A DNA stretch of 64,000 bases from an uncultured Spirochaetaceae bacterium (GTDB taxonomy: Bacteria > Spirochaetota > Spirochaetia > Sphaerochaetales > Sphaerochaetaceae), in NCBI GenBank assembly GCA_944389025.1, contig CALXKU010000001.1, positions 1-64,000 of the forward strand, in the 5' to 3' direction. Position 1 is the stretch's first letter, and each line of letters begins with the position of its first letter. The notes beneath the pieces are model-generated. The model was not told the DNA's origin and made no database searches. It saw only the letters and a program-made list of their open reading frames with translations. Positions 22,329 to 43,657 of the stretch are shown piece after piece. A program made the position numbers and the translations under genes.

Positions 22329-22645
22329 AATACTACCAGCTTATCTGGAACTGTGATGAACTCACTTTTGAATTCTCCTGTTATGTACTCTATGTTTGCA
22401 TATTGTTTTTCCGTCACAATCATAAGCATCACGGAACCTTTTTCAGGTGCGTTCTTCTTTACATTCTCAATAACAGATTTTGCTGCCGTCGCATTGAGTG
22501 TGATTTTTGAATAAACGGATTCCTGCATCATGATGAAGCCGTTTTGTACGAGATGCTTTCGGAAATTCCTATATGTTTTCCTATCTGAAACCGTCAGCGT
22601 AGGCAAATCAAAAAATACGAACACTCTCATATATCTAAAACTCAT
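22325..22645 (-). CDS. cas2: CRISPR-associated endoribonuclease-like Cas2
   Basis: 106-residue Cas2 that bridges Cas1 dimers in the spacer-integration complex. MRVFVFFDLPT near the N-terminus carries the conserved Asp (residue 13 from the first Met). The annotated start overlaps cas1 by 11 bases; an internal ATG at 22630 (before RVFVFF) is an alternative that would remove the overlap. Tight overlaps on both sides support one cas9-cas1-cas2-csn2 transcript. Confidence 0.93.
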   Translation of the reverse strand: MSFRYMRVFVFFDLPTLTVSDRKTYRNFRKHLVQNGFIMMQESVYSKITLNATAAKSVIENVKKNAPEKGSVMLMIVTEKQYANIEYITGEFKSEFITVPDKLVVL

Positions 22646-23513
22646 ATTCGATAAACCGTATAAGAGAAGGATCTCTTTTTGTTAGAGAATCAAGGACACT
22701 CTTAACAAATATGCTCAATGAATTAAGAAGGCTTGTTCTCATACCTGAAATCCTGACATCAGAATTCACCAGGTTAACAATTTCCATTTTCCTATTGGAT
22801 GTTAGTTCTTCTTCTACTGGACATTTTGCTACAAAATTGTCTATTAAGGGACGAATAGGTTCCATTATATCGCAGCCGAGATTGAACTCGTTAAATCGAT
22901 TCTTATGAAATATACCAATCTGGGTGATATATCCATTCGCAACAATTTCTCTGTTTATAGCAGATAAGATTACCGAATAACCATAATTGAGTGCAGCATT
23001 GATGTAATTATCTTGTTCTCTGGAGAAATCCATTCCAAAGAGTGCATTGAAATAAACTTTTGCGGCATGCCCTTCTCTGTTTGTGACGTCTCCTTCCTCA
23101 ACTTCCATGATATATTCATATATTTTCTCAGAGCCTTTCTTGTCGAACTGTTCCAAGCACTTGCTTTGTCTGTATATTTTTTCTTTTATTATTGTTGCCC
23201 ATATTTCTGCTTTGATTTTTTCTGACCATTCTGTTTGATTCTCAATTTTCAGACTTGTATCATGGCTCCCATAATATGGTAGTAGCTGAGCTCCTGGATT
23301 CCTTTTTTCGTCGCAGAATATTATGCAGATCTTTTCTTCCCATAGTTTCTGTAAGAGGGCAGTAGTTAATGTGCATCCTGTGTTCTCAATAATAAGGACT
23401 GAGATGTCAGGAAGAAAAACCTTCCTGACATCATCTGTATAACGTATTACAAGGTAGCCTAATTTATACTCCAGCTTTGCTCTTGAAGATATTACAACCA
23501 CCCTCCAACTCAT
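22635..23513 (-). CDS. cas1: CRISPR integrase Cas1, type II
   Basis: 292-residue Cas1 of type II form. It inserts new spacers together with Cas2. The metal-binding triad is visible as Glu147 (NREGHAAKVYF), His203 (IFHKNRFNEF) and Glu218 (DIMEP). The start codon shares one base with the cas9 stop (TAATG), so translation is coupled. Nothing suggests damage, so adaptation should be functional. Confidence 0.96.
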   Translation of the reverse strand: MSWRVVVISSRAKLEYKLGYLVIRYTDDVRKVFLPDISVLIIENTGCTLTTALLQKLWEEKICIIFCDEKRNPGAQLLPYYGSHDTSLKIENQTEWSEKIKAEIWATIIKEKIYRQSKCLEQFDKKGSEKIYEYIMEVEEGDVTNREGHAAKVYFNALFGMDFSREQDNYINAALNYGYSVILSAINREIVANGYITQIGIFHKNRFNEFNLGCDIMEPIRPLIDNFVAKCPVEEELTSNRKMEIVNLVNSDVRISGMRTSLLNSLSIFVKSVLDSLTKRDPSLIRFIEYEF

Positions 23514-26500: not shown

Positions 26501-27550
26501 GGAAAAACCGGTTTTCATATCCGAATGGAAGAACTTTCCGTATTCACTTTTTGAAAGATACTTTTTACATATCTTCTTAAGGAGATCTAAATCATTTCTA
26601 TTGTTTTCATATAATGCGACTTTTGCTTCAGAAAGAGTGGGATAGCCACTCATTACGAATGCGAGCAGAGACCAGTCATATAAGGATTTTGCAAGTTCAA
26701 TAAATTTGAATTGATCACTTTCAAGATTCGCTTCCAATTCAGGCAGTATCTGATCATCGTAGCTTGCACTCGAGAATTCAATATCTTTAAGATCTTTGTA
26801 TTCTGCATTGTCAAATAACTTTTCCGCCTTAACCTTGTTCCCAACAAGAAGCTTTATGATTTCCGTTTTCAGTTTGCTGTCATCGGTTCTTATGATTTTC
26901 GCAAGTTCTTCTTTTCGCTTTCCTTTTGATTTCTCTTGCAGTGCATTTTCAAGAGCAGAATGATCGGGAACAGAAAGTTCAGCGTCATATATATTTTGGA
27001 ACGTTTCTTTCATCTCATTTAGCACAGAGGAAAGATCCAGGGCAGCTTTTAGATTTTCTCCTGGAAAAAGGAAGTGTCCACGGTTTTTCATAATATGGCT
27101 TATAGCAAGATACACAAGTCTCACATCATGGTAGGCATTACTCGTCATCAGCTCTTTTCTTAAATGGAATATAGTCGGGTATTCCTTGAAAAAATCCTTG
27201 TCCTTGAATCCTTCATCATTGAAAAGGGAGTTTTTCTGTTTTTCGTTTTTATCTTCCGCATAAAGTGCACTATCATTTAACCTGAGAAAGAATGTTGGAT
27301 CAACTTTGTCTATTTCCTTATGAAAGAGTGACTGCGTGAGCTTTATGCGTTCTTTTCTTCTCTCAAGCCTTCTTCTGGCGCAGCGCTGTACACGCCTGCT
27401 TTCAGCGGTAAGTGCTTCATCAAACAGGTGAGAGCCCCACATTGACTTTCCATTGAATTTCAATATGTTGTAATCGGTATCTGTAACCGCAAAACCATCA
27501 GATTCCGTTCCACAATCAAGCCCAATGTAATAATCTTTCTCAAAATTCAC
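23513..27550 (-). CDS. cas9: CRISPR effector nuclease Cas9, type II-A
   Basis: About 1345 residues with all catalytic residues in place: RuvC-I Asp12 (YIGLDCGTE), an Arg-rich bridge helix (RRVQRCARRRLERRKERI), RuvC-II Glu764 (VFLEVAREKG), HNH His849 with Asn863 (DVDHIYPYSQ...LNNKVL), and RuvC-III LHHAHDAYLN (His983, Asp984). It should cut DNA matched by crRNA. The start is GTG at 27550, preceded by AGAGGAGG. A longer frame to 27622 would add 24 odd residues encoded across the tracrRNA anti-repeat and was rejected. It is first in the cas9-cas1-cas2-csn2 operon. The gene is visibly AT-richer than its neighbours, which suggests acquisition by transfer. Confidence 0.97.
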   Translation of the reverse strand: MNFEKDYYIGLDCGTESDGFAVTDTDYNILKFNGKSMWGSHLFDEALTAESRRVQRCARRRLERRKERIKLTQSLFHKEIDKVDPTFFLRLNDSALYAEDKNEKQKNSLFNDEGFKDKDFFKEYPTIFHLRKELMTSNAYHDVRLVYLAISHIMKNRGHFLFPGENLKAALDLSSVLNEMKETFQNIYDAELSVPDHSALENALQEKSKGKRKEELAKIIRTDDSKLKTEIIKLLVGNKVKAEKLFDNAEYKDLKDIEFSSASYDDQILPELEANLESDQFKFIELAKSLYDWSLLAFVMSGYPTLSEAKVALYENNRNDLDLLKKICKKYLSKSEYGKFFHSDMKTGFSNYIGKIHYGNKNVAVKRCSTEDFYKEIRSILSKAEESDPDVCAIRNSIENGTFLPLLISFRNGAVPQQINRMELEAILNKASNYLPFLNEKDETGLTVSEKLLSVFCFRIPYYIGPLGSNPNNKNSWMVRKEEGKILPWNYKEKIDIEASAECFIRRMTSKCTYLPKEDVIPKNSLLYSKYLVLNDLNNLRINGQKLETGKKHEIYHELFGMQKKVTQAKLKKYLIFKGWFSKNDDIEITGIDGDFKSSLSSYIDFKNYIETGKLKRSDVEEIIKWLTLFGDDKRMAKSRICKHYAEVLSDDEINNIIRLKYSGWGRFSEKFLSGITTQIKGTDEFKSIVSLLWETDENLMEIIHHYEFSEPLGNNEKIDKLNYHDVDDLYVSPSVKRQIWQTLRIVDEIVKIMGKPPKKVFLEVAREKGNAGERKESRKNSLLSIMKNKKKELPSDIEEIIRSLESFEESDIAKRDKLYLYFTQCGKCMYSGRPIDIGDIGTAVDVDHIYPYSQSDDDSLNNKVLVYSEYNREKTNDYPIKADIRQKMASFWKMLKDKELISKSKYERLMRATPLTESDLSGFIARQLVETAQSTKATADILKRYFGDNTKIVYSKAGNVSKFRDKFKINKSRSVNSLHHAHDAYLNIVVGNVLDVKYTSNFFRMGKNTGYYNLAYPFNYNVEGAWEAGEDGTISLVREVLAKNNILFTRQPVTRKGQLFDLMLVKAGSKQGVLPAKLSNPVLQERIKEFGEEAAVKAWTDKYGGYNSQTTAYFALVRHEEKEKPFATFIPISIIDSESLSEEKKLIEYCKTTLNMSNPRILFAKLRANTLIKVDGFLLAISGKSSGGSKITLKNNVPLYLANELTGYVKKIDKFLERKQKYKNYVLSETHDEITIDKNILLYEELGRKANQNIYLKRPGCQTKVINDGLDKFISLSLEEQCKVLSNMIIYFSMNNGLCDLSLIGGKPNTGTLTISSKVDLTKKKLSVIHQSITGLFSEEVVIK

Positions 27551-27551
27551 C

Positions 27552-27580
27552 TTGACATCCTCCTCTTTATGTTTTTCAAT
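27552..27580 (+). promoter_or_regulatory. Predicted tracrRNA promoter inside the cas9 translation start region
   Basis: TTGACA at 27552-27557 (a perfect -35 box), 17 bp, then TTCAAT at 27575-27580. The predicted start near 27587 is exactly where identity to the repeat begins. The promoter overlaps the antisense of the cas9 ribosome binding site and stands 1 base from its start codon. Confidence 0.65.
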
Positions 27581-27586
27581 AAAGTT

Positions 27587-27685
27587 ACTAACACAGTTTG
27601 TCCAAATAAAAACTATGTTCAAATCGCCCGTGAGGGTCTCCCGTCGTAGGGATTAAAAATCATCCTTGGAAAGGGTGATTTTTTT
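27587..27685 (+). ncRNA. Predicted tracrRNA
   Basis: About 99 nt opposite and upstream of cas9. The anti-repeat is ACTAACACAGTT (27587-27598, identical to the plus-strand repeat), then a short TGT bulge, then CCAAAT (27602-27607), pairing with the first 20 or so bases of the minus-sense crRNA repeat. Two small hairpins follow (CCC-GTGA-GGG at 27627-27636; TCCC/GGGA at 27639-27652). Then comes an 11-bp terminator stem (27657-27667 with 27671-27681) and a T run to 27685. A strong promoter lies just upstream. Position, pairing, and terminator agree, so I consider this well supported. Confidence 0.88.
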
Positions 27686-27929: not shown

Positions 27930-30071
27930 ATGGCAGCAACAAGGATTGATGATAAAATCAGGCGCTCAGACGCTTTAAGCAAGGCCAGAGGAGAGGCGAA
28001 ATACGTTTCCGATCTCTTTTTCGACGGCATGCTTTACGCCATGATGCTCAGAAGTACGGAAGCCAGAGCTGATATCATCAGCATCACACCTCCAACTCTA
28101 CCCGACGGGTATTATTTCATCACCGCAGATGATATTCCTCCCGAGGGTAAGAACGGACTGCATATGATAGCAGAGGATTGGAGATGCTTTGCAAAAGGTG
28201 ATGTGAGGTTCGTCGGAGAGACTATCGGTCTTTTCGTTGGTCCTTCTAGGGCCGTGCTCAAGAGCCTTGTGGATAACACGAAGGTCGAATACAGCGTTAA
28301 GGAAGGTGCGTATTCAATAGATGATGCGATAGCTATAAAGGGTGGCCCGATCGTAGAGGGAAAAGAAGATGACGTCATGTGTCAGCTTTACTGCGAGAAG
28401 GGAAGGGACATGGAGAGCGTCTTCAAAGAGGCTGATGAGATTCTCACAGAGACATTCGAGACAGGATTTCAGGAGCATGTTCACCTTGAGACGAACGGCG
28501 CTGTCGTGATGGAGGAGGGTGAGAACTACGTGTTCTACATCTCATGCCAGTGTCCGTTCTATGTGAGAAAGTCTGTTGCCGGGCTTCTGGGTATTCCTGT
28601 AGAGCGTGTGATAGTCAGACAGACTACTACCGGAGGTGCTTTCGGTGGAAAGGAGCACTTCCCAGATGTGCTTGCCGGTCCTCTTCTTGTTGCTGAACAT
28701 AAGATTCATAAGCCGATAAAGCTAATCTTCGACAGGGAGGAGGATATGGAGTTCTCCGTCAAGAGGCATCCTTCGAAGATAATATATAAATCTGCAATCA
28801 AAGACGGGAAGCTTATCGGAACCAAAGGTGACATCTATTACAACTGCGGAGCATACCTCTCCGCATCGTTCGTAGTTCTTCAGCGTGGAGTATTCCATGC
28901 CAACGGCGTGTACGATATCCCGAACACCTATCTTACGGGATATGGCATGGCTACGAACACCTTCCCAAGCGATGCCTTCCGCGGCTTCGGTGCACCTCAG
29001 ACCTTGTTTGCAATTGAGATGCATATGAGTCACATCGCAAGAAGGCTTGGAATCGATCCTGCAGATTTCAAGAAGAGCATGTTCCTGAAGAAGGGCGGGG
29101 AGACGGTGACGAACGGCCATGTGGTTGAGGAAGTCATGCTGAACGAGATGTTCGACAACATCGCAAAAGAGTCCGATTACTACCGAAAGAGCAGGGAGTA
29201 CGGATATGGCTCGGGACGTGGCATCGGTGTGAGTTTCTATAACCATGGTGGAGCTTTCACCGGTAACGGTGAGCAGGCGATAATCAAGGCTCATGCCCGT
29301 CTCAGGAAGGAAGGGGAGCGTGTCATAATCGAAGTGGGCTCCACGGAGATGGGACAGGGTTTCCAGACCATACTGAGAAAGATTGCGGCAGCGGTTCTCG
29401 AGATTCCTATCGAGAATGTCGACTATCCGAATCCAGACACATCCTGTGTCCCCGATTCAGGACCGACCGCAGCATCCCGCTCTACTATGATTGTAGGTCG
29501 TCTCATTGAGCGCTGTGCCCAAGAGATGAAGGAGCGCTGGGGAGAAGGGGACTTCACCGTTGAGAAGGAATATGAGCATCCGGACGGATTCCCATGGGAT
29601 CAGAGCACGTTCCGCGGGGACGCGTACCTCGGGTATGGCTGGGGAGCGGCTATCGTTGAGCTCGAGATCGACAGGCGTACTAATGAGGTTGTAGTCAAAG
29701 GCATCTGGTCAAGCCATGAGATCGGTAAGGCGATAGACGAGCTCATCGTACACGGTCAGATCAATGGAGGTGTCATACAGAGTCTCGGATATGCCTCCAT
29801 GGAGAAGATGGAGAACAGGAATGGTCACTTCAAGCAGACGAGCATGTCCGACTATGTGATACCTACCAGCATGGATTTCCCGGAGCAGTACTATCACATC
29901 CAGGAGAATCCGTATGAGTTCGGTCCATTCGGTGCCAAGGGTATGGGAGAACTCGTTTTCAACGGTGCGGACGCAGCATATGTCGATGCCTTAGAGAGGG
30001 CCATCGGCAAGGAAGTATATAAGATTCCTCTTCCACCAGAGGACATAGAGGAGGCGCTGAGAAATGCTTGA
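27930..30071 (+). CDS. Xanthine dehydrogenase-type molybdenum-binding subunit
   Basis: 713-residue large subunit of a molybdenum hydroxylase, probably acting on a purine or other N-heterocycle. Molybdopterin-contact motifs are seen: TTGGAFGGKE, DAFRGFGAPQ (Arg in the substrate pocket), GSTEMGQGF, and FGAKGMGE with the catalytic Glu near the C-terminus. The downstream genes supply the 2Fe-2S and FAD subunits, completing a three-chain xdhABC-like enzyme. The neighbouring selenium genes suggest a labile selenium in the active site. Exact substrate is unproven. It overlaps the next gene by 8 bases. Confidence 0.9.
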   Translation: MAATRIDDKIRRSDALSKARGEAKYVSDLFFDGMLYAMMLRSTEARADIISITPPTLPDGYYFITADDIPPEGKNGLHMIAEDWRCFAKGDVRFVGETIGLFVGPSRAVLKSLVDNTKVEYSVKEGAYSIDDAIAIKGGPIVEGKEDDVMCQLYCEKGRDMESVFKEADEILTETFETGFQEHVHLETNGAVVMEEGENYVFYISCQCPFYVRKSVAGLLGIPVERVIVRQTTTGGAFGGKEHFPDVLAGPLLVAEHKIHKPIKLIFDREEDMEFSVKRHPSKIIYKSAIKDGKLIGTKGDIYYNCGAYLSASFVVLQRGVFHANGVYDIPNTYLTGYGMATNTFPSDAFRGFGAPQTLFAIEMHMSHIARRLGIDPADFKKSMFLKKGGETVTNGHVVEEVMLNEMFDNIAKESDYYRKSREYGYGSGRGIGVSFYNHGGAFTGNGEQAIIKAHARLRKEGERVIIEVGSTEMGQGFQTILRKIAAAVLEIPIENVDYPNPDTSCVPDSGPTAASRSTMIVGRLIERCAQEMKERWGEGDFTVEKEYEHPDGFPWDQSTFRGDAYLGYGWGAAIVELEIDRRTNEVVVKGIWSSHEIGKAIDELIVHGQINGGVIQSLGYASMEKMENRNGHFKQTSMSDYVIPTSMDFPEQYYHIQENPYEFGPFGAKGMGELVFNGADAAYVDALERAIGKEVYKIPLPPEDIEEALRNA

Positions 30072-30540
30072 TAAAAAGATTACTTTCACTCTCAACGGAA
30101 AGAAGGTGGAGTTCATCGGAGATCCGCTGAGAAGACTTATAGACACGCTGAGGGAGGATTTTGGTCTCACCGGTGTTAAAGAGGGATGCGGAGAGGGCGA
30201 ATGCGGTGCCTGTTCCGTGATAAAGGATGGAAAGCTCGTGACAAGCTGCATAATCCCGATGGGAGCGGTTTACGGTGCGGACATCTGGACGATTGAAGGC
30301 ATCAGGGATACCGAGCTCGGCTCTACTATAGTCGAGGCTTTCGCTGATGGAGGGGCGGTGCAGTGTGGATTCTGCATCCCGGGCATGGTTCTCGCATCAT
30401 ACGTGCTTTTAAAAGAGAAGAGCGACCCGAGCGAGGAGGAGATCAGGCAGGCGATCAGCGGAAACATCTGCCGCTGTACTGGCTATGACCTCATCGTCAA
30501 GAGCATCCGCCTTGCAGATGAGAGAAGGAGGGGAGTATGA
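30064..30540 (+). CDS. Hydroxylase 2Fe-2S subunit
   Basis: 158-residue iron-sulfur subunit carrying two [2Fe-2S] clusters that pass electrons from molybdenum to FAD. All eight cysteines are present: CGEGECGAC with a later Cys in the plant-ferredoxin-like N-domain, and QCGFC with CRC in the helical C-domain. Length is standard. It overlaps both neighbours (8 and 4 bases). It is the only intact 2Fe-2S partner in the cluster, since the related domain in the 959-residue protein downstream has lost its cysteines. Confidence 0.94.
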   Translation: MLDKKITFTLNGKKVEFIGDPLRRLIDTLREDFGLTGVKEGCGEGECGACSVIKDGKLVTSCIIPMGAVYGADIWTIEGIRDTELGSTIVEAFADGGAVQCGFCIPGMVLASYVLLKEKSDPSEEEIRQAISGNICRCTGYDLIVKSIRLADERRRGV

Positions 30541-31397
30541 ACACGTGCTACATTCCTGAGAATCTTACGGAAGCTCTCGAGATCAGAAGAAAGACGCATG
30601 CCCTTCCCCTTGCGGGAGGTACCGATCTCATGGTCCAGGCGAAACAGGGGATTGGAATCAATCCCGTTTTCAAGAGTCCCATCATGATAATAACCGGACT
30701 TGACGAGCTTAAGGGAATAAGGGTTGAGGATGATGGAACGCTTGTGATCGGCGCTCTTACGACAAGTGCCGAGATTGCCGCGGATGAGCGTGTCTTCTAC
30801 CATATAAGAACAGCGGCAAGCCAGATGGGTGCGATATCGCTGAGAAACACTGCCACGATAGGAGGGAATATCGCGAACGCATCCCCGAAGGGGGATCTCC
30901 CTCAGCCTCTAATCCTTCTTGATGCGACACTTACTCTTGCCTCATTGGATGGGGAAAGGGAGATGAAGGTTGATGATTTCATCACCGGTGCGAAAAAGAC
31001 AGCCCTCAATGATGATGAGATAATAAAGGAGATAAGGGTTAAACCTGTAGAGGCTAACTATCTGTTCTATCATAAGATAGGAACGAGGAAGGCCAATGCG
31101 ATAAGCAAGCTCTCCCTTTCTGCCATGGCTAATGTCAAAGATGGCCTCATCCTCGATTTCAGGGCATCAAGCGGAGCCGCCGGAGACAAGGTCAAGAGAA
31201 AGAGGGAAGTAGAGGAGATGCTCATTGGAAAAGCCGTAAGCGATATCCCGTCTCTTAAGGATGGGTTTCTTACAGCATGGAATGGCATACTCTCGCCACA
31301 TGCGATGCCGACCTACAGAAGGGAGAGTACGAAGAGGATGCTCTCTTACTTCCTTGATAAGATAAGTGAAGGCGCTGAGCTTGGAATAATCAGTTAG
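30537..31397 (+). CDS. Hydroxylase FAD-binding subunit
   Basis: 286-residue FAD subunit of the CO dehydrogenase/xanthine dehydrogenase flavoprotein family. The two FAD-contact motifs are intact: LAGGTDLMVQ (about residue 21) and TIGGNIANASPKGD (about 107). The C-terminal domain typical of the family is present. It would pass electrons from the 2Fe-2S subunit to NAD+ or another acceptor. It overlaps the 2Fe-2S gene by 4 bases. Confidence 0.92.
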   Translation: MNTCYIPENLTEALEIRRKTHALPLAGGTDLMVQAKQGIGINPVFKSPIMIITGLDELKGIRVEDDGTLVIGALTTSAEIAADERVFYHIRTAASQMGAISLRNTATIGGNIANASPKGDLPQPLILLDATLTLASLDGEREMKVDDFITGAKKTALNDDEIIKEIRVKPVEANYLFYHKIGTRKANAISKLSLSAMANVKDGLILDFRASSGAAGDKVKRKREVEEMLIGKAVSDIPSLKDGFLTAWNGILSPHAMPTYRRESTKRMLSYFLDKISEGAELGIIS

Positions 31398-31405
31398 GAG
31401 GTTCT

Positions 31406-32074
31406 ATGAGAGAACTGATAAGAGTTAATAGCCTTGAGGAGGCTCTTGGAAAGAAAGGGGCGTATCTTGCAGGTGGAACCGAGATACTGAGACTCGATTC
31501 CCCTCTGGATAAGGCAATCTCTGTTATCGACATCCTTCCATTCCTCTCAAAGGAGGTTGAGGATGAAGGGGATTGGATCAGAATCGGAGCTGGATGCACT
31601 TTTTCATCCCTCCTTTCCTCTGCTCTCATTCCTTCTTTCCTTAAGGAGGCGCTCTCTTACATGAGCTCCCCTGAGCTCAGGGAGATGGCGACAATCGGGG
31701 GGAACATAGCCTCCTTTAGGGATGACTCGTTCCTGATTCCAACTCTCGCCTCTGCCTATGCACGCCTTGAGGTCCTCTTACCAGGGGGAAAGGAATGCAT
31801 ACCGCTCTCCTCTTTTAAGAGGGATGGTGGGATAATCCTTTCAATAACTGTTAGTAAAACGGCTGATGTAAAGAATTTCAGGGAGAGCCTGACAAGCCAT
31901 TCCCATGCTGTTGTTACCGCCGCTTTCAGTTCTGAATGCGAATGCTACGCGGTGAAGGGTAGTGGGATATTCTTCGACCATGATAGTCTCTCTTTTGCTT
32001 CCGACATGTATGGAAGTGCCGAGTACAAGAGATATCTGTCTGAGCTTTACCGGTCAGAAAGCGGGAGGTCATGA
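31406..32074 (+). CDS. Short, divergent FAD-subunit-like protein
   Basis: 222 residues related to the same flavoprotein family but shorter than the usual 280-290. The first motif AYLAGGTEILR is kept. The second reads ATIGGNIASFRDDSF, where the SP.GD part that contacts FAD is replaced. The C-terminal domain is reduced. It has its own ribosome binding site (TTAGGAGG) and is coupled by a 4-base overlap to the 959-residue hydroxylase after it. Whether it still binds FAD cannot be told; it may have become a structural partner. Confidence 0.75.
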   Translation: MRELIRVNSLEEALGKKGAYLAGGTEILRLDSPLDKAISVIDILPFLSKEVEDEGDWIRIGAGCTFSSLLSSALIPSFLKEALSYMSSPELREMATIGGNIASFRDDSFLIPTLASAYARLEVLLPGGKECIPLSSFKRDGGIILSITVSKTADVKNFRESLTSHSHAVVTAAFSSECECYAVKGSGIFFDHDSLSFASDMYGSAEYKRYLSELYRSESGRS

Positions 32075-34950
32075 TGGAAATCAGAGCAAGAATAAACGGT
32101 AAGAACGTATTGCTTCACGGGGATGCGATGAGCAGTCTCAGAAGGGCGCTTTATGATGCGGGATATAACAGCGTACGCGACAGCGATGACGGGGAGGGGT
32201 TCACAGGAAGTGATACCATAGTCTTCAATTCCCGTCTCATGTACTCCAATCTCATTCCGCTCTTCAGGGCCGATGGTGCTGAGATATACACACCCGAGTG
32301 TCTTATTAAAGATAGGAAGATAAACGATGTCCAGCAGGCCATGATCGATGCGGGAATCGTACAGAGCGCATATAACGCTCCCTCTGCGGCACTTATCCTG
32401 ACATCTCTCCTTGATAGGAAGCCGGATGCTACGAGGGAGGATGTGAAAGAGGCTCTTTCAGGGCTTTTCGTCCGTGATGCGGGGTATGAGCACTATTATC
32501 TAGCAGTAAGGCTTGCTCAGGAGAAGAGGAAGCACGGTAAGTATATTTCTCTCATTGCGCCATCTTTCAGGGAGGGCTTGGAGTACGTTGGAAAGCCGAC
32601 TGGAAAGATCGATGGAGAGGCTCTGGTCTCTGGTGAGAAGGTTTTCGTGGAGGATAAGGTTCTTTCCGGCTACAGCGTTCTTAGAGTACTCAGAAGCCCT
32701 TATGCGCATGCATATATCAAGAGCATAGACTCCTCTGCGGCGGAGAAGCTTGAGGGCGTTGACGCAGTCATCACATGTTTCAACTGTCCAGATGTGTATT
32801 ACATGCAAGCCGGGCAGGGGAATCCGGAACCAAGTCCTCATGACAGGAGGCTTTTTAACCGCAAGGTCCGTCATGTCGGAGACAGGGTTGCGGCAGTGGT
32901 TGCGGACAGCGATGAGATTGCAGAGAAGGCCCTTTCCCTCATTAAGGTGGAATATGAGGCGCTAGAGCCCGTATTCACGGTGGAAGAGGCGATGGCAGAT
33001 GGTGCTCCTCTCGTTCATAACGGCATTGTCGAGTACCGCTCTGGAGCCCCTGCTGACCTTGATGAATATAACAGGAATGCAAATCCCCTGGATGGAAAGG
33101 TTATCTATCAGTTCCCGCTTCACGGAGATATAAGGCATAATATCGCAGCCGGTGCTCATGGTGGTATCGGGGATATCGAGAAAGGTTTCAGCGAAGCTGA
33201 TGCCATAGTCGATTCAACCTATCAGACGAGCCAGGTGCAGTGTACTCCTCTGGAGCCCCATGTGTGCTACTGCCGCCTTGAGAACGGAAGACTTGTCATT
33301 CATGCCTCTACACAGGTTCCTTATCATGTCAGGCGTATCGTAAGCTGGGTATGCCAGATTCCTGAGCATAAGATCCATGTCATAAAAGAGAGGGTAGGTG
33401 GCGGATACGGAAGCAAGCAGGATATTCTTGTCGAGGATCTTGCAGGATATGCGACGTGGATCACAGGTAAGAGCATCTATTACCGCAATTCACGCGAGGA
33501 GGAGTTCTGGGCCAATTCCACACGTCATCCGATGAGAGTCAGGGTGAAAATGGGCGGAAAGAAGGATGGAACGATCACAGCGATTTACATGGATGTCAGG
33601 GCGAACACCGGTCCTTACGGCAATCACTGTCTTACGGTCCCTATGAACGCATCCAGCAAGACACTCCCGATTTTCGCTGTTGAGAATATGTACTACGACC
33701 TTCTCACGTATTATACGAACATACCTCCAACGGGTGCCTATCAGGGGTATGGTGCGCCGAAAGGCTATTTCGGAATCATAAGCGCGATGGGCGAACTTGC
33801 TATGAAGCTTGGTATCGATCCACTGATGATGGCAAAGAAGAACATAGTGCATTCGGGCTACATGCTGGAGATTCTCAAAGGGCTTGGCGAAGGGCGTGAG
33901 GGAACGGTTGTTCCTGTCGGTTCCTGCGGCCTCGAGGAGGCTCTCGATAAGGGTGCCAGGATGATAGACTGGGGTAAGAGGGAGATCTCCGAGGATCCTG
34001 ACTGGGCGATAGGAAAGGGTTTTGCCATGATTCAGCAGGGCTCGGGACTGCCTGGTCTCGATCACTCGAATGCACAGGTCAAGCTTGTCGCAGATGGAAC
34101 TTTCCTTGTCCTCTCCGGTGGTGCTGATATCGGAACGGGGCTTGATACCATAAGTGCCAAGTGCTGTGCCGAGATAATGAAATGTCCTCTGGAGGACGTT
34201 TCGGTCGTCTCCGGTGATACGGACTCATGCCTTTTCGATACCGGTGCATACGCCTCAAGCGGTACTTATTTCAGTGGGAATGCATCTCTTAACGCTGCAA
34301 AGGATCTCAGGAGAAAGGTGATTGCCGAAGCCGCACTTCAGATGGGTGAGAGAGAAGAGGATCTTGAGCTTGTGTATCCTGGAAAGGTCGTTTCGAAGAA
34401 GAGTGGGCTTGAGCTCAGCTATAAGGATCTGATCCATACCGCCCTTGCAGGGGACGGAAGGGGAGCCATCGTTGGCACTGGATGCTTCGTAACACCTAAT
34501 TTCGCTGTTCCTTACGGGGCGCATTTCGCTCAGGTTGCGGTAAACAGGAAGACCGGTAAGGTCAAGGTTATGAAGTTCTACGCTCTTCAGGATGCCGGAA
34601 CTCCGATCAATCCAGAGCTCGCGCTCTGCCAGATGTATGGTGCGGTTCAGAAGAGCATCGGTCATACCCTTTATGAGAACATGGTCCTTGATAAGAGTGG
34701 AAAATGCATCAACGGCAATTTCACCGATTACGGTGCTCCAATGATTGAGGAGGCGCCAGAGGATTTCAAGGCCGTGTTAATCGATATCAATGATCAGTAC
34801 GGGCCGTTCGGTGCGAAGTCGATCTCTGAGATAGCGACAAACGGGGCTGCCCCTGCGATTGCGATGGCGATTGCCGATGCAGTCGGAGTCTGGGTACGTT
34901 CCTGGCCGATCACTCCTGAGAAGATTCTTCGCGAGATGGGCAAGCTGTAA
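32071..34950 (+). CDS. Selenium-dependent xanthine dehydrogenase-like protein with cysteine-less ferredoxin domain
   Basis: 959-residue fusion typical of the selenium-dependent XDH family: an N-terminal 2Fe-2S-type region (about 1-155) and a molybdopterin domain. The catalytic part looks intact: VGGGYGSKQ, GAYQGYGAPKG, GGADIGTGLDT, and FGAKSISE with the Glu. The N-terminal region aligns along its length with the intact 2Fe-2S subunit two genes upstream, but every cluster cysteine is replaced. QCGFC corresponds to QSAYN, CRCTGY to VRDAGY, and the first-cluster region reads DSDDGEGFTGSD. This cannot hold [2Fe-2S] clusters. Electron flow must use another subunit or be absent. Stop overlaps the convergent TetR gene by 41 bases. 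Confidence 0.88.
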   Translation: MMEIRARINGKNVLLHGDAMSSLRRALYDAGYNSVRDSDDGEGFTGSDTIVFNSRLMYSNLIPLFRADGAEIYTPECLIKDRKINDVQQAMIDAGIVQSAYNAPSAALILTSLLDRKPDATREDVKEALSGLFVRDAGYEHYYLAVRLAQEKRKHGKYISLIAPSFREGLEYVGKPTGKIDGEALVSGEKVFVEDKVLSGYSVLRVLRSPYAHAYIKSIDSSAAEKLEGVDAVITCFNCPDVYYMQAGQGNPEPSPHDRRLFNRKVRHVGDRVAAVVADSDEIAEKALSLIKVEYEALEPVFTVEEAMADGAPLVHNGIVEYRSGAPADLDEYNRNANPLDGKVIYQFPLHGDIRHNIAAGAHGGIGDIEKGFSEADAIVDSTYQTSQVQCTPLEPHVCYCRLENGRLVIHASTQVPYHVRRIVSWVCQIPEHKIHVIKERVGGGYGSKQDILVEDLAGYATWITGKSIYYRNSREEEFWANSTRHPMRVRVKMGGKKDGTITAIYMDVRANTGPYGNHCLTVPMNASSKTLPIFAVENMYYDLLTYYTNIPPTGAYQGYGAPKGYFGIISAMGELAMKLGIDPLMMAKKNIVHSGYMLEILKGLGEGREGTVVPVGSCGLEEALDKGARMIDWGKREISEDPDWAIGKGFAMIQQGSGLPGLDHSNAQVKLVADGTFLVLSGGADIGTGLDTISAKCCAEIMKCPLEDVSVVSGDTDSCLFDTGAYASSGTYFSGNASLNAAKDLRRKVIAEAALQMGEREEDLELVYPGKVVSKKSGLELSYKDLIHTALAGDGRGAIVGTGCFVTPNFAVPYGAHFAQVAVNRKTGKVKVMKFYALQDAGTPINPELALCQMYGAVQKSIGHTLYENMVLDKSGKCINGNFTDYGAPMIEEAPEDFKAVLIDINDQYGPFGAKSISEIATNGAAPAIAMAIADAVGVWVRSWPITPEKILREMGKL

Positions 34951-37591: not shown

Positions 37592-38527
37592 TTATACTTT
37601 TCTCAGTATTACCTTAGCCTTTCCTCCGCAGGCCATGCCGAGCGGACTATCTTTTTCTAGATCGAAATCTAAGACGCTGAATCTCTCTTTTCTTTTCAGC
37701 ATATCACGTGCCACATGTATGCACTCATTTTCAATCGCGCCGCCTCCGATTGTTGAATGTGTTGTGTTCTCTGTTACCGCCATCTCCGCACCGCTCTCCC
37801 TTGGCCCGGATCCGCTCTTTCCGATTATGCGGACTTTGATGACATCCTTCTCCTCCTTCTCAAGAAAAGAGAAAAGGGTCTCTTCTATTGTTATCTGTCT
37901 TTTTCCTTCTCTGTATGTTTTTATGATTTCGGCCATTATCGAAAGAGCGATCTCCTCAGGGCTCTCTGCGTTGATATCCAGCCCTATAGGGGAGTGAACG
38001 CTCTCAAGACTTTCCCCTTTGATTCCTCTCTCTTTTAAATGGGAGTAGGTGAGGCTGATCTTCTTACTGCTTCCAATCATGCCGACATAGCGCGCATCGT
38101 AGTTTCTCAGCACATAGTAAAGTGCCTCCTCGTCTGCTTTATGGCCATGTGTGAAAATCAGGAAATAGGGATTGGTGAAATCATACTTTCGTGAGAATAT
38201 GTTCTCGTAGCTGTCGATTACAATCAGGGCTTCATAAGGCCCGTCCTTTGTCACATCCGCCCTATCATCGAATATGACAAGAGGAAAGCCAATCATTTTT
38301 GCTATGCGGTATACGCTTTTGCCGATGTGACCGAAACCGAAAAGCACAAGGGTTGGCCTTAAAGCCACCGTCTCTTCAATAATTTCCCCTGATGGTGAGA
38401 AATCTGGAGAGGAGAATATGATCTCATCCCCTCTTAAAAAGCATTCGGCTCCTGTATGAGCATCAGTTAATCTCTTCAGCGCTCCCTTCTCAAGTGCTTT
38501 TATTATTTTTCCGTATTCCTCTCTCAT
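37592..38527 (-). CDS. XdhC/CoxI-like maturation factor with permuted domain order
   Basis: 311 residues. XdhC proteins insert the finished molybdenum cofactor, with its sulfur or selenium, into hydroxylases. They normally run CoxI-like domain first, Rossmann domain second. Here the Rossmann domain comes first (LFGFGHIGKSV near 62, YVGMIGSSKK near 146). The CoxI-like motifs stand at the C-terminus: SGPRESGAEMAV (about 239-250), STIGGGAIE (about 257-265) and GMACGGKAKV near the end, with the conserved Cys. The open frame is continuous, so this is a true rearranged gene. It overlaps the desulfurase gene by 4 bases, implying joint expression for sulfur/selenium loading. Confidence 0.8.
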   Translation of the reverse strand: MREEYGKIIKALEKGALKRLTDAHTGAECFLRGDEIIFSSPDFSPSGEIIEETVALRPTLVLFGFGHIGKSVYRIAKMIGFPLVIFDDRADVTKDGPYEALIVIDSYENIFSRKYDFTNPYFLIFTHGHKADEEALYYVLRNYDARYVGMIGSSKKISLTYSHLKERGIKGESLESVHSPIGLDINAESPEEIALSIMAEIIKTYREGKRQITIEETLFSFLEKEEKDVIKVRIIGKSGSGPRESGAEMAVTENTTHSTIGGGAIENECIHVARDMLKRKERFSVLDFDLEKDSPLGMACGGKAKVILRKV

Positions 38528-39651
38528 CTGCTTTCTTCCCTTATGGCTATAAGAGCCTCGTCAATCTCATCGTCTTTAGTGAACGGGCCTGCGGAAAGCC
38601 TTATCGTACCGCCCGGGTATGTCCCAATCGCTTTATGAGCCGTTGCTGCGCAGTGCAGTCCTACGCGGCTTTCTACCCCATGTTTATTTAGCAGGGAGGC
38701 TGCAAGCTCAGCGTTATCCATTCTTTTCGCACTTATGCTGATAACAGAATTCCTGTTTTCGTCCAATGTACCGTGAACCGTTATCGTATCAATTTTGAGA
38801 AGTCCTTCAAGAAGGCGCATCGTATTTCTTTTCTCCCTTGCCCTAAGAGTCTCAAGATTGTCTTTCACATATCTGACACTAGCTGCAAGCCCATATAGCC
38901 CGGGAAGATTCCGTGTCCCGGACTCGAACTTGTCGGGGAAGAGCTCCGGTTGCTCATAGCTGTCTGAGAAGCTGCCTGTTCCACCCGTTAAAAGAGGTCT
39001 GAGTTTCTCTGCAAAGCTCTTCTCTGCGACAAAGCCACCAGTGCCCTCAGGGCCTAGAAGACCTTTGTGACCTGAAAAGCAGAGTGCGCTTATTCCCAAT
39101 TCATCCATTTTTATATCCACATAGGGCAGGGCCTGTGCGGTATCGATTATGAACGGAAGGCGAAGGTGGGAGGCAATCGTAGCAAGTTTCTCAACGTCCT
39201 CGTTGACTCCGGTGACATTTGATGCGATTGAAAAGACGATTGCCTTCGTTCTCTCATTTTTAAGAGATGGAATCTCATCCAGCATGTTTCTTCCGCTTCC
39301 GTCTGTCGTTGGAAATGAGTAGTTAAGCCCGATGGAGGAAATGGTTCTCATCACCGCATTGTGCTCGCATGCCCCGATTATTATGTGATCACCTCTTTTG
39401 AGAAACCCGCGAAGCACGGTGTTTATCGATTCGGTCAATCCGGAATTAAGAAATACAGTGTCCTCTCCGCTGTGAGCGACAAGCCTGGCGATATCCTCCC
39501 TTAGGCTTATGAGATCGCTTACAGTCTCGTAGCTCTTTTCACTTGCGGTCCTGTTTATGTTCCGTCCGTTCTCTTTTAAGAATGTGAATACCCTCTCTGC
39601 AACCGAGGGTGCCTTAGGAAAACTCGTAGATGCGTTATCCAGGTAAATCAT
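38524..39651 (-). CDS. Cysteine desulfurase-like aminotransferase class V (EF2568 type)
   Basis: 375-residue PLP enzyme starting MIYLDNASTSFPK. The PLP lysine lies in SGHKGLLGPEG and the catalytic Cys in GLHCAATAHKAIG. Such enzymes take sulfur from cysteine or selenium from selenocysteine. This family is regularly found with selenium-dependent hydroxylases. I chose the ATG at 39651 over the longer frame to 39711, because the promoter (TTTCAT, 17 bp, TATAAT) ends 7 bases before it and the longer form would overlap yedE. No Shine-Dalgarno sequence is seen, so the transcript is likely leaderless. Confidence 0.9.
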   Translation of the reverse strand: MIYLDNASTSFPKAPSVAERVFTFLKENGRNINRTASEKSYETVSDLISLREDIARLVAHSGEDTVFLNSGLTESINTVLRGFLKRGDHIIIGACEHNAVMRTISSIGLNYSFPTTDGSGRNMLDEIPSLKNERTKAIVFSIASNVTGVNEDVEKLATIASHLRLPFIIDTAQALPYVDIKMDELGISALCFSGHKGLLGPEGTGGFVAEKSFAEKLRPLLTGGTGSFSDSYEQPELFPDKFESGTRNLPGLYGLAASVRYVKDNLETLRAREKRNTMRLLEGLLKIDTITVHGTLDENRNSVISISAKRMDNAELAASLLNKHGVESRVGLHCAATAHKAIGTYPGGTIRLSAGPFTKDDEIDEALIAIREESR

Positions 39652-39658
39652 GGAAAAC

Positions 39659-39696
39659 ATTATAACACTTTTCCATTGCAAATGAAAAAATATAAT
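39659..39696. promoter_or_regulatory. Overlapping divergent promoters of the desulfurase and yedE
   Basis: Minus strand: TTTCAT (39687-39682) and TATAAT (39664-39659), 17 bp apart. Plus strand: TATAAT at 39691-39696 with a poor -35 inside the first promoter. Both predicted starts lie within about 10 bases of their start codons. Overlap means the two polymerases would compete. Confidence 0.5.
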
Positions 39697-39711
39697 GGTA
39701 CGATTTCTCAT

Positions 39712-40788
39712 ATGAAATCATTGAAAGAAAAAAGGAATCTCGCCATAACCGGTGTCATCATCGGTGCTGTGGCGATTGTTTTGATGCATTTCGGCAATCC
39801 CGGGAACATGGGATTCTGCATAGCGTGTTTCATCCGAGACATCGCAGGTTCTCTAAGCCTGCATAATGCTGCGACCGTGCAGTACATGCGCCCCGAGATC
39901 ATCGGCATAGTTCTTGGTGCGTTCGCAGTAAGTGTCATCAAAGGGGAGTTCAAGAGCAGAGCGGGAAGTTCACCGCTACTGCGATTCATCCTCGGTTTTT
40001 TCATGATGGTTGGCGCTCTTGTCTTCCTTGGCTGCCCGCTTAGGATGGTTCTGCGTCTTGCCGCGGGGGATATGAACGCTTTTATCGGCCTCTTAGGGTT
40101 CATTGCAGGAATAGGGGCAGGTTCTTTTTTCCTTAACAATGGCTTCTCCCTGGGCCGTGCTCATAGCTCTGAGAGGATAGAAGGTGTGGCATTCCCTGCT
40201 ATCAACATTGTCCTTCTTATTATCCTTCTGTTCTTCCCGGCTCTGCTTAAGTTCAGTGAATCGGGACCTGGAAGCATGCACGCCCCGATTTTCCTCTCCC
40301 TGCTTGTCGCTTTCCTCGTTGGTGCGGCCGCCCAGCGTACTAGGCTCTGCATGGCAGGAGGGATCAGGGATATCTTCCTGATTAAGGATTTCACACTGAT
40401 AACAGGATTTTTATTCATATTCATAGCAGCTCTTATCGGTAACATCGCTATGGGTAATTTCCACATTGGCTTTCTGGATCAGCCGATAGCGCATGATAAG
40501 CATTTGTGGAATTTCCTTTCCATGGCTCTTGTAGGTCTTACGGCGGCAATGTTGGGTGGCTGTCCGCTCAGACAGCTTATTCTCGCAGGAGAGGGTAATA
40601 GCGACAGTGCCATAACGGTTCTTGGAATGCTTATCGGAGCCGCGTTCAGCCACAATGCGGGAGCGGCATCGGCAGTGGGAACGGGACCGGCTCTGATTGG
40701 AAAGGTAAGCGTCGTGTTCGGTCTTGTATTTTCTTTAGCACTTGCTGCTTTCATTACAGTGAGAAGGAGGAGCAATGAAAAGTGTTGA
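39712..40788 (+). CDS. yedE: YedE-type selenium/sulfur transporter
   Basis: 358-residue membrane protein of the YeeE/YedE family with about ten hydrophobic segments. Conserved cysteine motifs are present in each half: MGFCIACFIRD, FLGCPLRM, RTRLCMAGGIRD and LGGCPLRQL. In the selenium context this family is proposed to import a selenium compound. It overlaps the following TusA-like gene by 14 bases, starting the operon yedE-tusA-DUF3343-selD. Start is uncertain: the ATG at 39712 lacks a Shine-Dalgarno sequence, and in-frame TTG/ATG codons at 39676/39682 exist but lie upstream of the -10. Confidence 0.9.
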   Translation: MKSLKEKRNLAITGVIIGAVAIVLMHFGNPGNMGFCIACFIRDIAGSLSLHNAATVQYMRPEIIGIVLGAFAVSVIKGEFKSRAGSSPLLRFILGFFMMVGALVFLGCPLRMVLRLAAGDMNAFIGLLGFIAGIGAGSFFLNNGFSLGRAHSSERIEGVAFPAINIVLLIILLFFPALLKFSESGPGSMHAPIFLSLLVAFLVGAAAQRTRLCMAGGIRDIFLIKDFTLITGFLFIFIAALIGNIAMGNFHIGFLDQPIAHDKHLWNFLSMALVGLTAAMLGGCPLRQLILAGEGNSDSAITVLGMLIGAAFSHNAGAASAVGTGPALIGKVSVVFGLVFSLALAAFITVRRRSNEKC

Positions 40789-40981
40789 TGCGATGGGACT
40801 CAGCTGTCCTGAGCCTGTGATCATGGCGAAGAGGGCACTCAAAGACAGTCCCGATGGAATAGAGATCAAGGTAGATAACGTTGCAAGCAGGGAAAATGTC
40901 TCACGCTATCTTGAGGCAATGGGACTTAAAGTGAGCGTTGAGGAAAGGCGAGGAGAATGGAGAATAACGGGGAGGAGGTAG
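40775..40981 (+). CDS. yedF: TusA/YedF-like selenium carrier
   Basis: 68-residue TusA (SirA) domain with the key DAMGLSCPEPVIMAK motif; Cys10-Pro-x-Pro is the carrier site for sulfur or selenium. The usual selenium-type YedF adds a DsrE-like domain after this one, which is missing here. The gene stops and a DUF3343 gene follows in another frame. It is preceded by AGGAGGAGC inside yedE. Likely role: pass reduced selenium from the desulfurase or transporter toward SelD. The symbol is given by family and context. Confidence 0.82.
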   Translation: MKSVDAMGLSCPEPVIMAKRALKDSPDGIEIKVDNVASRENVSRYLEAMGLKVSVEERRGEWRITGRR

Positions 40982-41187
40982 TAATCACGTTTTTCTCTCA
41001 TTATGAGGCTGTCAAAGCAAGAAGGTGCCTTGGAGAGGGGACCCTCTCTCCTGTGCCACGGAGTCTTTCCTCGTCATGCGGTACAGCACTCTTTGTTTCC
41101 TCTGCTGCCTTTTACTCAAACCATGATTTCGTTTACGATAAGGCATATACCATGAAGGAGGGCAAATGGTCCGTCTTACAAGTTTAG
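40957..41187 (+). CDS. DUF3343 putative Se/S carrier protein
   Basis: 76-residue protein of the DUF3343 (Se_S_carrier-like) family. The family hallmark is seen as VPRSLSSSCGTALFV with the conserved SSCG cysteine, after an N-terminal VITFFSHYEAVKA strand-helix. These small proteins occur beside SelD and YedF and are thought to carry selenium or sulfur; biochemical proof is limited. It overlaps yedF by 25 bases and selD by 22 bases, showing dense coupling. A Cys in RRCLGEG is an additional candidate site. Confidence 0.78.
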   Translation: MENNGEEVVITFFSHYEAVKARRCLGEGTLSPVPRSLSSSCGTALFVSSAAFYSNHDFVYDKAYTMKEGKWSVLQV

Positions 41188-42191
41188 TCAGAACTTCAGG
41201 TTGTGCGGCAAAACTCAGCCCGAAGGATCTCGATAGCGTTCTCTCCGATATTCCTCTTATGAGATGTGACGGCCTCCTTGAAGGCTTTGAACATTCGGAT
41301 GATGCCCTGGTTTATGACATGGGTGATGGCAGGGTGCTCATCGAAACGGTCGATTTCTTCCCTCCGATGGTCGACGATCCTTTTACGTTCGGTCAGATTG
41401 CAGCGGCCAATGCTCTTTCCGATATCTATGCGATGGGGGGAGATCCTAAGCTTGCTATGAATCTGATGTGCTTTCCCCACTGCCTTGAACTTGCCATCAT
41501 GAAAGAGATCCTTCTTGGTGGAATGGACAAGGTTAGAGAGGCAGGGGCAGTCATTGCTGGCGGTCACACCATAAGTGACAGTGAACCCAAGTACGGGCTC
41601 TCAGTGACCGGATTCGCAAAAAAAAATGAGGTCTGGTACAACAGGGGGCTCAAGGAAGGAGATGTAATAATCCTTACGAAGAAGATTGGGGTTGGTGTGG
41701 TGAACACTGCAAGCAAGGTCGATGAAGCTGATGAAAGCAGTATAAAGGATGCCATAGCATCGATGACCACTCTTAATAAAAGAGCCCGTGACGCATCAAG
41801 GGGTCTTGATATTCATGCAGCAACAGATGTCACCGGCTTCTCTCTCTTAGGACATCTTAGGGAGATGGCGAAATCATCAGAAAAGACTGTTGAGATCAGC
41901 TACCATCTTGTACCTCAGATAGACGGAGCTCTGGAGCTTGCAAAGTTCGGTTTCCTCCCAGAGGGTGCATACAACAACAGGGAGTTCATCTCTCCGGATG
42001 TTTCCTTCTCCCCTGATATCAAGAGGGAGGAAGAGGATATCCTTTTCGATCCTCAGACATCAGGAGGACTTCTCCTTTCTATGGACAGGGAGAATGCGGA
42101 GATATTCCTTTCCCGTATGAAGGACACCCCTGCATCAATAATTGCAGAAGTGAAGGAAAAGGGAGAAAAGCTCTTAGCAGTCATTCCATGA
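41166..42191 (+). CDS. selD: Selenide, water dikinase
   Basis: 341-residue selenophosphate synthase, making selenophosphate from selenide and ATP. The active-site motif is SGCAAK with Cys13 and Lys16, so this is the Cys and not the selenocysteine form. The nucleotide-binding DFFPPMVDDPFTFGQIAA region and the C-terminal DPQTSGGLL are standard. Start ATG has AGGAGG 5 bases upstream. The neighbours are hydroxylase maturation genes; SelA/SelB and tRNA-Sec are not in the window, so SelD may serve the labile selenium cofactor only or also selenoproteins. Confidence 0.96.
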   Translation: MVRLTSLVRTSGCAAKLSPKDLDSVLSDIPLMRCDGLLEGFEHSDDALVYDMGDGRVLIETVDFFPPMVDDPFTFGQIAAANALSDIYAMGGDPKLAMNLMCFPHCLELAIMKEILLGGMDKVREAGAVIAGGHTISDSEPKYGLSVTGFAKKNEVWYNRGLKEGDVIILTKKIGVGVVNTASKVDEADESSIKDAIASMTTLNKRARDASRGLDIHAATDVTGFSLLGHLREMAKSSEKTVEISYHLVPQIDGALELAKFGFLPEGAYNNREFISPDVSFSPDIKREEEDILFDPQTSGGLLLSMDRENAEIFLSRMKDTPASIIAEVKEKGEKLLAVIP

Positions 42192-42454: not shown

Positions 42455-43657
42455 ATGGCCAAAACCAAGAGTGATATCGAAGCTTTAATCAACAAACTGG
42501 AATCTCTCAATACTGAGGGTATGTATCTTGATGATTTCTTCCACACGTGGAAGAAGAATGATGATGAGATTGATGCGGTATTCACCGTTGCTGAAATTCT
42601 GAGAGGGCTGAGGGAGAACAACATCTCAGCAAAGGTTTTTGATTCAGGGCTTGGAATCAGCATCTTCCGCGATAATTCCACCAGAACCCGTTTCTCTTTC
42701 GCTTCCGCTTGTAATCTGCTGGGGCTTGAAGTACAGGATCTTGATGAGAAGCTTTCCCAGATCGCTCATGGTGAGACAGTGAGGGAGACTGCCAACATGG
42801 TATCCTTCATGGCGGATGTCATCGGTATCCGTGATGATATGTATATCGGAAAGGGACACACGTATATGAAGACCGTCAGTGAGGCAGTCCAGGAAGGCTA
42901 CAAGGATGATGTGCTTGAGCAGAGGCCGACCATCGTTAACCTCCAGTGCGATATCGATCATCCGACACAGGCCATGGCCGATATGCTCCATGTGATCAAT
43001 CATTTCGGCGGGGTGGAGAACCTCAAGGGAAAGAAGATCGCTATGACATGGGCGTACTCTCCTTCCTATGGTAAGCCGCTTTCCGTACCTCAGGGAATCA
43101 TAGGACTGTTCACCAGATTCGGAATGGATGTTGTTCTTGCACATCCTGAGGGCTATGATGTGATGAGCGATGTCGAGGACGTTGCTGCTGAGAATGCGAA
43201 GAAATCAGGAGGCTCATATAAGAAGGTATCTTCCATGCAGGAGGCTTTCAAGGATGCGGACATCGTATATCCGAAGTCATGGGCACCATATGCTGTTATG
43301 GAGGAGAGGACGAAGCTCGTAGAGGAAGGCAAGTTCGATGATCTCAAGGAGCTTGAGAAGAGATGCCTTGCAAATAACGCCAAGTTCAAGGATTGGACAT
43401 GCTCTGAGGAACTTATGAAGAGCACGAAGGATGGAAAGGCGCTCTACATGCACTGCCTGCCTGCGGACATCACAGGTGTAAGCTGCAAAGAGGGTGAAGT
43501 GGATGCATCCGTATTCGATCGCTATCTTGTTCCGCTTTACAAGGAAGCATCATACAAGCCTTACATCATCGCAGCCATGATATTCCTCTCCAAGTTCAAG
43601 GATCCATCTGCAAAACTCTCAGAGCTTCTTGAAGCGGGAAAGAAGAGGATTAAATAA
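42455..43657 (+). CDS. ygeW: YgeW-type knotted carbamoyltransferase
   Basis: 400-residue carbamoyltransferase of the YgeW family. The carbamoyl-phosphate site is FRDNSTRTRFSF (STRTR at 75-79), and HCLPADITG near residue 334 provides the second conserved site. It is longer than ornithine or aspartate carbamoyltransferases. YgeW is typical of anaerobic purine/urate catabolic clusters next to selenium-dependent hydroxylases and is proposed to act on ureido intermediates; ornithine is not its substrate in the family. Its presence here supports purine breakdown as the role of the island. Single-gene unit with its own promoter and a terminator-like stem. Confidence 0.93.
   Translation: MAKTKSDIEALINKLESLNTEGMYLDDFFHTWKKNDDEIDAVFTVAEILRGLRENNISAKVFDSGLGISIFRDNSTRTRFSFASACNLLGLEVQDLDEKLSQIAHGETVRETANMVSFMADVIGIRDDMYIGKGHTYMKTVSEAVQEGYKDDVLEQRPTIVNLQCDIDHPTQAMADMLHVINHFGGVENLKGKKIAMTWAYSPSYGKPLSVPQGIIGLFTRFGMDVVLAHPEGYDVMSDVEDVAAENAKKSGGSYKKVSSMQEAFKDADIVYPKSWAPYAVMEERTKLVEEGKFDDLKELEKRCLANNAKFKDWTCSEELMKSTKDGKALYMHCLPADITGVSCKEGEVDASVFDRYLVPLYKEASYKPYIIAAMIFLSKFKDPSAKLSELLEAGKKRIK

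Follow-up and report, generated by a model that had tools for sequence, protein, structure and literature searches.

We analyzed a window of 64,000 nucleotides from an uncultured Spirochaetaceae bacterium (GenBank assembly GCA_944389025.1, contig CALXKU010000001.1, positions 1 to 64,000 of the forward strand), which contains a gene (32071-34950, plus strand) for an XdhD-type molybdenum (Mo) hydroxylase of the urate-reductase lineage. The N-terminal domain of this protein keeps a ferredoxin-like fold and has none of the eight cysteines that would hold two iron-sulfur (Fe-S) clusters; the cysteine-less state is conserved, is likely to be the result of loss, and is matched by a change in the adjacent flavin subunit, YgfM. 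We consider it probable that the protein is a urate reductase with a dismantled internal electron relay, in which the domain is kept as structure and electrons arrive by a bypass.

The reading frame of 959 codons has no interruption. The protein scores 1215.3 bits against TIGR03313 (XdhD, Mo-binding subunit; curated cut-off 1101.9), over positions 3-951 of the 951 in the profile, versus 291.1 bits against TIGR03311 (selenium-dependent xanthine dehydrogenase; cut-off 830.45). The latter assignment was therefore rejected, together with the name of selenium-type xanthine dehydrogenase given to the gene in an earlier interpretation of the same DNA (the sequence-only reading). By these scores and the identity of 52% to Escherichia coli XdhD, we identify the gene as the orthologue of that protein in spirochaetes; named close homologues are found in Candidatus Ornithospirochaeta and related spirochaete genomes. 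Of the features of the xanthine oxidase family, the Mo-domain fold (Pfam domains and structural match) and the catalytic glutamate (E920) are present, in agreement with the open frame and intact catalytic domain noted earlier, and the eight cysteines of the two [2Fe-2S] clusters are lacking. The AlphaFold2 (AF2) model of the chain has a mean predicted local distance difference test score (pLDDT) of 81, and comparison with solved family members gave Z values of 34-36. For example, residues 1-958 align to the fused aldehyde oxidoreductase of Desulfovibrio gigas (1sij) with Z 34.6, 858 aligned residues and a root-mean-square deviation (rmsd) of 3.0, which indicates that the fold of the N-terminal domain is kept.

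A match to NF043084, the family of XdhC-type 2Fe-2S subunits, covers residues 3-148 with 56.5 bits; in the Pfam profile search the N-terminal domain matched Fer2_2 (45.4 bits) and gave no match to Fer2. In the alignment to cysteine-intact orthologues, all eight ligand columns are occupied by other residues: D39, T45, D48, N60, S99, N102, V134 and D136. Thus, the loss of every ligand within a preserved fold, as claimed in the sequence-only reading, is borne out: this is a pseudo-ferredoxin domain inside an otherwise complete Mo hydroxylase, and the usual two [2Fe-2S] clusters are not possible. The end-to-end likeness of the domain to the separate 2Fe-2S subunit encoded at 30064-30540 holds in part. 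That subunit is real and keeps the motifs GCGEGECGAC, SC, QCGFC and CRC; however, the first loop of the XdhD domain has 11 residues, which corresponds to the CX5CX2C spacing of cysteine-intact XdhD, versus CX4CX2C in the neighbor. It should be noted that the database name of TIGR03313, Mo/Fe-S-binding subunit, implies eight cysteines, of which both the window protein and E. coli XdhD have none; membership in this family is sound, and it is the name that is wrong.

The same eight cysteines are absent from XdhD of E. coli K-12, where the same replacement motifs are found, and from 93 of 93 aligned relatives from Spirochaetota, Chloroflexota, Bacillota and E. coli. Among these 93 sequences, D39, D48, N102 and R135 are invariant, S99 is found in 92 and D136 in 90; positions 45 and 134 are now hydrophobic or variable. 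The gene is present in 34 of 35 genomes of the same genus (one copy is partial) and in 5131 of 5426 complete E. coli genomes; a survey of Chloroflexota yielded no genome beyond the one already known. Within the domain, conservation is highest in the former ligand loops (mean entropy 0.36 vs 1.41 for the remainder; 0.77 for the Mo domain), and eight random sites were equally conserved in only 0.18% of draws. The ratio of nonsynonymous to synonymous substitution rates (dN/dS) of the domain is ~0.09-0.16 relative to its relatives, a rough guide only because dS is nearly saturated. Judged by these patterns, the pseudo-ferredoxin domain is under purifying selection. Since E. coli XdhD and all aligned relatives lack the same cysteines, the variant is, on alignment evidence, old and conserved, and is the normal state in most of the XdhD family. 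In mammalian xanthine oxidoreductase, changes of single cluster cysteines result in insoluble or monomeric protein (PMC3509653); fixed replacements that stabilize an empty pocket would make sense in light of this damage.

An important distinction within the family is the existence of fused XdhD proteins that retain all eight cysteines. We found them in four Spirochaetia genomes (G141, G244, G317 and G339), in which YgfM immediately precedes and YgeW immediately follows XdhD; the protein of G244 is ~51% identical to that of the window. Another is encoded within a urate cluster on a plasmid of Cetobacterium somerae (L227), and the cysteine-intact protein P0005 also exceeds the TIGR03313 cut-off (1167 bits). 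The intact proteins share with the window protein the fused architecture, the YgfM and urate-pathway neighbors and the Mo-pocket residues, and differ from it in the eight cysteines and in an aspartate of the partner flavin subunit. Their Fe/S-II motif, CX5CX2C, has one residue more than the CX4CX2C seen in almost every other Fe-S domain examined; this insertion was found only in fused XdhD, and the cysteine-less proteins share the longer loop. The closest outgroup of the window protein's Mo domain is formed by three-subunit XdhD-like enzymes (P0004/L143 and L155-L164), which, unlike the window protein, have a separate Fe-S subunit with eight cysteines and CX4CX2C. In the Mo-domain tree, the root was placed on three-subunit relatives whose eight-cysteine Fe-S subunit is separate; these are followed by Cetobacterium, then the intact spirochaetes, and then the cysteine-less proteins as one clade (support 84/85). 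Together, the rooted order and the shared one-residue insertion suggest a single loss from a working relay. Three-subunit relatives with an intact Fe-S subunit (L151-L164), several of which are encoded beside SsnA-, YgeY- or hydantoinase-like genes, are possible relay-bearing urate reductases.

The second change is found in the flavin subunit. The YgfM-like open reading frame adjoins xdhD, as in the E. coli-type urate reductase, and its match to TIGR03312 (YgfM) is 64.7 bits, below the cut-off of 241.5. In the Pfam search, FAD_binding_5 is kept in the window YgfM, and the C-terminal flavin domain has no match there (57.5 bits in Cetobacterium, 22.8 in E. coli). The AF2 model (pLDDT 93.7) aligns to the CO dehydrogenase flavin subunit CutM (1ffu_C) with Z 24.7, 221 aligned residues and rmsd 2.3. 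In solved relatives, the flavin loop carries a conserved aspartate (D of GDWA/GDFA); bovine Asp429, beside this column, is near the flavin ring (PMC3509653). All 6 partners of intact XdhD and 11 of 14 three-subunit forms have this aspartate, versus none of the 98 partners of cysteine-less XdhD (these are counts of non-identical sequences, many closely related, and not of independent events); in E. coli YgfM, the position is glycine. A second aspartate (SPxxD) is found in 13/14 three-subunit forms, 1/6 intact partners and 0/98 cysteine-less partners, and the AGGT and TIGGN flavin loops are kept. Judged by these columns, YgfM lost its conserved flavin-loop aspartate in the same lineage in which XdhD lost its cysteines.

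The Mo pocket, by comparison, has a signature that is common to the cysteine-less, intact and three-subunit classes, with an equivalent of E. coli E606, a residue tied to substrate orientation (PMC12507026), in most members. Because this signature is shared, enzymes that have clusters and those that lack them are expected to catalyze the same reaction.

In the scenario that we favor, XdhD would begin the anaerobic breakdown of urate by taking off its C6 oxygen, yielding 2,8-dioxopurine. The ancestral protein would have carried two [2Fe-2S] clusters in its fused N-terminal domain; one branch would then have lost all eight ligands, most of them replaced by fixed residues that fill and stabilize the old cluster pockets, while YgfM lost the aspartate of its flavin loop. 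The present domain would serve a structural purpose, holding the Mo domain and YgfM. The route from flavin adenine dinucleotide (FAD) through Fe/S-II and Fe/S-I to Mo would no longer be used, and the Mo center would most likely be reduced by a bypass, i.e., by another donor acting directly at or near the Mo site, or through altered docking of YgfM. The gap between Mo and flavin in xanthine dehydrogenase is well over 14 angstrom. Fast electron tunnelling extends up to 14 angstrom (reviewed in PMC8097209). YgfK was considered as a substitute donor and rejected, as it does not separate the classes: it is present in 16/16 cysteine-less and 4/4 intact spirochaete genomes searched.

Several points weigh against this scenario. 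E. coli XdhD has been reported (2025) to convert urate to 2,8-dioxopurine with reduced nicotinamide adenine dinucleotide (NADH) in vitro (PMC12507026), which means that electrons somehow reach Mo. FAD may still bind YgfM, given that the AGGT and TIGGN loops are kept, and the flavin change is imperfectly matched to the cysteine loss because the SPxxD aspartate was already lost in most partners of the intact spirochaete proteins. The support for a single loss is moderate, and an earlier quick tree did not resolve E. coli. The conserved aspartates, serine and asparagines may be non-cysteine ligands of some metal. Finally, we infer the structural role of the domain from conservation and predicted fold alone, and urate as the substrate of the spirochaete protein from E. 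coli.

Among the other explanations, an unlikely one is that XdhD is a redox-neutral purine transhydroxylase, in which hydroxylation of one purine (e.g., xanthine or hypoxanthine) would reduce Mo and urate would then be dehydroxylated there, which would make a relay unnecessary; if the first purine were xanthine, the enzyme would in sum convert xanthine to 2,8-dioxopurine. We know of no member of the xanthine oxidase family that acts in this way. Such a mechanism would fit the loss of both the Fe-S ligands and the flavin-loop aspartate while the Mo pocket is intact, the operon that XdhD shares with an XdhABC-like purine hydroxylase in this genus, and the methods text of PMC12507026, which names no control without NADH for XdhD; conversely, the E. 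coli complex was reported to form 2,8-dioxopurine from urate and NADH with no second purine added, and 2,8-dioxopurine still builds up from urate in delta-xdhA E. coli (PMC12507026). Equally hard to favor is the related proposal that XdhD without an internal relay moves the urate oxygen to another purine at no net electron cost, which would leave the ferredoxin and flavin parts as structural fossils. The sequence-only reading had allowed for work without net electron transfer, and the published NADH-dependent reduction of urate by the E. coli enzyme in vitro speaks against it.

It also seems rather doubtful that electrons are borrowed through a separate intact 2Fe-2S subunit of the 30064-30540 type, as had been suggested as well. 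Such a subunit lies in the same operon, adjacent to XdhD, in this genus and in Oscillospirales relatives, and a stand-alone Fer2_2 protein (~150-220 amino acids) was found in 32 of 33 XdhD genomes searched. However, this co-occurrence is expected, since the genomes probably need XdhABC-type enzymes anyway; one draft genome (G074) has only a fused protein; the docking place should be filled by the pseudo-domain; and the subunit is not adjacent to XdhD in Sphaerochaeta or E. coli. Adjacency is thus not general, and the neighboring subunit was rejected as an obligatory partner. Far less probable is the retention of Fe-S clusters or another metal through the conserved aspartates, serine and asparagine: D39, D48 and N102 are invariant and S99 and D136 nearly so, but none of the eight sulfur ligands is left, and two of the former ligand positions, 45 and 134, are hydrophobic or variable. 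To our knowledge, no [2Fe-2S] cluster has only oxygen or nitrogen ligands. A sequencing or assembly error, including the frameshift named earlier as a possible refutation, or a decaying pseudogene can be dismissed with near certainty, because the relatives (93/93, and E. coli XdhD) carry the same substitutions, the gene recurs in same-genus genomes and the domain is under purifying selection; we found nothing in favor of either.

Table 1. Features of the window around xdhD (aa, amino acids; Cys, cysteine)
Feature	Coordinates	Strand	Evidence
Mo subunit of adjacent XdhABC-like purine hydroxylase, 713 aa	27930..30071	+	profile and Pfam matches
Intact 2x[2Fe-2S] subunit (8 Cys) of adjacent XdhABC-like enzyme	30064..30540	+	motifs, profiles
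XdhB-type FAD subunit of adjacent XdhABC-like enzyme	30537..31397	+	profile and Pfam matches
YgfM-type flavin subunit, 222 aa, overlaps xdhD start	31406..32074	+	TIGR03312, Pfam, AF2 fold, column counts
XdhD-type Mo hydroxylase, urate-reductase lineage	32071..34950	+	959 aa; TIGR03313 1215 bits; 52% identity to E. coli XdhD; AF2 fold
Pseudo-ferredoxin domain, residues 1-160, fold kept, 0/8 cluster Cys	32071..32550	+	profiles, alignment, AF2 fold
Former Fe/S-II loop, residues 34-48, SVRDSDDGEGFTGSD; Cys replaced by D39, T45, D48	32170..32214	+	D39, D48 invariant 93/93; CX5CX2C length
Former fourth Fe/S-II ligand, N60	32248..32250	+	alignment
Former Fe/S-I loop 1, residues 97-104, VQSAYNAP; Cys replaced by S99, N102	32359..32382	+	S99 92/93, N102 93/93
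Former Fe/S-I loop 2, residues 129-140, LSGLFVRDAGYE; Cys replaced by V134, D136	32455..32490	+	R135 93/93, D136 90/93
Molybdopterin domain; pocket Q415, Q450, Q558, E607 (= E. coli E606), E920	32578..34947	+	Pfam Ald_Xan_dh_C, MoCoBD_1, MoCoBD_2; residue conservation by class
XdhC/CoxI-family Mo-enzyme maturation factor (related)	37592..38527	-	NF045664 225 bits, below curated cut-off 350
YedE-family putative selenium transporter	39676..40788	+	TIGR04112 487 bits
SelD selenophosphate synthase	41166..42191	+	TIGR00476 369 bits
YgeW carbamoyltransferase, reductive urate pathway	42455..43657	+	TIGR03316 768 bits, cut-off 500

In this genus, xdhD and the genes of the XdhABC-like purine hydroxylase form a single compact operon, some of whose genes overlap. 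Genes of the reductive urate pathway were sought in the genome by family profile search, and YgfK (1270 bits), SsnA (546), YgeY (488-501), YgeW (768), diaminopropionate ammonia-lyase (YgeX, 467) and D-hydantoinase (410) were all found above their curated cut-offs; by these matches, the pathway looks complete in this genome. The region 37592-42191 encodes the maturation factor, a cysteine desulfurase or selenocysteine-lyase-like protein, YedE and SelD, a cluster pointing to a selenium-bearing Mo cofactor. Selenium genes nearby and an Fe-S domain fused ahead of the Mo domain are features that the window protein shares with the TIGR03311 enzymes; unlike it, the true TIGR03311 protein of the same genome (L053, 6953-9511 of G000:C2; 1206 bits) has all eight Fe-S cysteines. 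Other operons of the Mo/FeS/FAD type (L144-L150 and L154, e.g., on G000:C22) have divergent Fe-S subunits (PCxxC or similar, CxC, no glutamine), and their Mo subunits score low against the window proteins. On its other side, the xdh operon adjoins a Type II-A CRISPR (clustered regularly interspaced short palindromic repeats) locus (21654-27622, minus strand) with Cas9 (911 bits), Csn2 (154 bits) and Cas1- and Cas2-like open reading frames.

The XdhD family and its activity are already known. The E. coli pair XdhD-YgfM (b2881/b2880) resembles that of the window in the missing cysteines, the replacement motifs, YgfM directly upstream and the same pathway genes; the window pair differs in that it follows an XdhA-FeS-FAD operon and in the length of YgfM (222 vs 259 amino acids in E. 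coli). E. coli XdhD co-purifies with a protein of ~30 kDa, putatively YgfM (PMC12507026; see also the comment PMC12990295). In the literature that we searched, XdhD is called flavin-fed or a homologue of xanthine dehydrogenase, and we found no statement on its lack of Fe-S ligands in these open-licence texts; the word "cysteine" has 0 matches in the main text of PMC12507026. Thus, the sequence-only reading, which knew of no description of the variant, was right insofar as the cysteine loss goes unmentioned in these texts, but the variant itself is the usual state in most XdhD proteins, including that of E. coli. As far as we found, there is no earlier description of the cysteine-intact orthologues, the tree that favors a single loss, the insertion in the loop or the matching change in the flavin subunit.

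These results bear on E. coli XdhD, which starts a urate-degrading pathway of the gut that is under development against gout. This enzyme is described as being fed by NADH through a flavin subunit, and the sequences indicate that the usual wire between flavin and Mo is missing in E. coli and most relatives. The intact orthologues in similar clusters provide a natural pair for asking whether a Mo hydroxylase runs without its Fe-S relay, and database names such as Mo/Fe-S-binding subunit, as well as cofactor assumptions in pathway models, need correcting.

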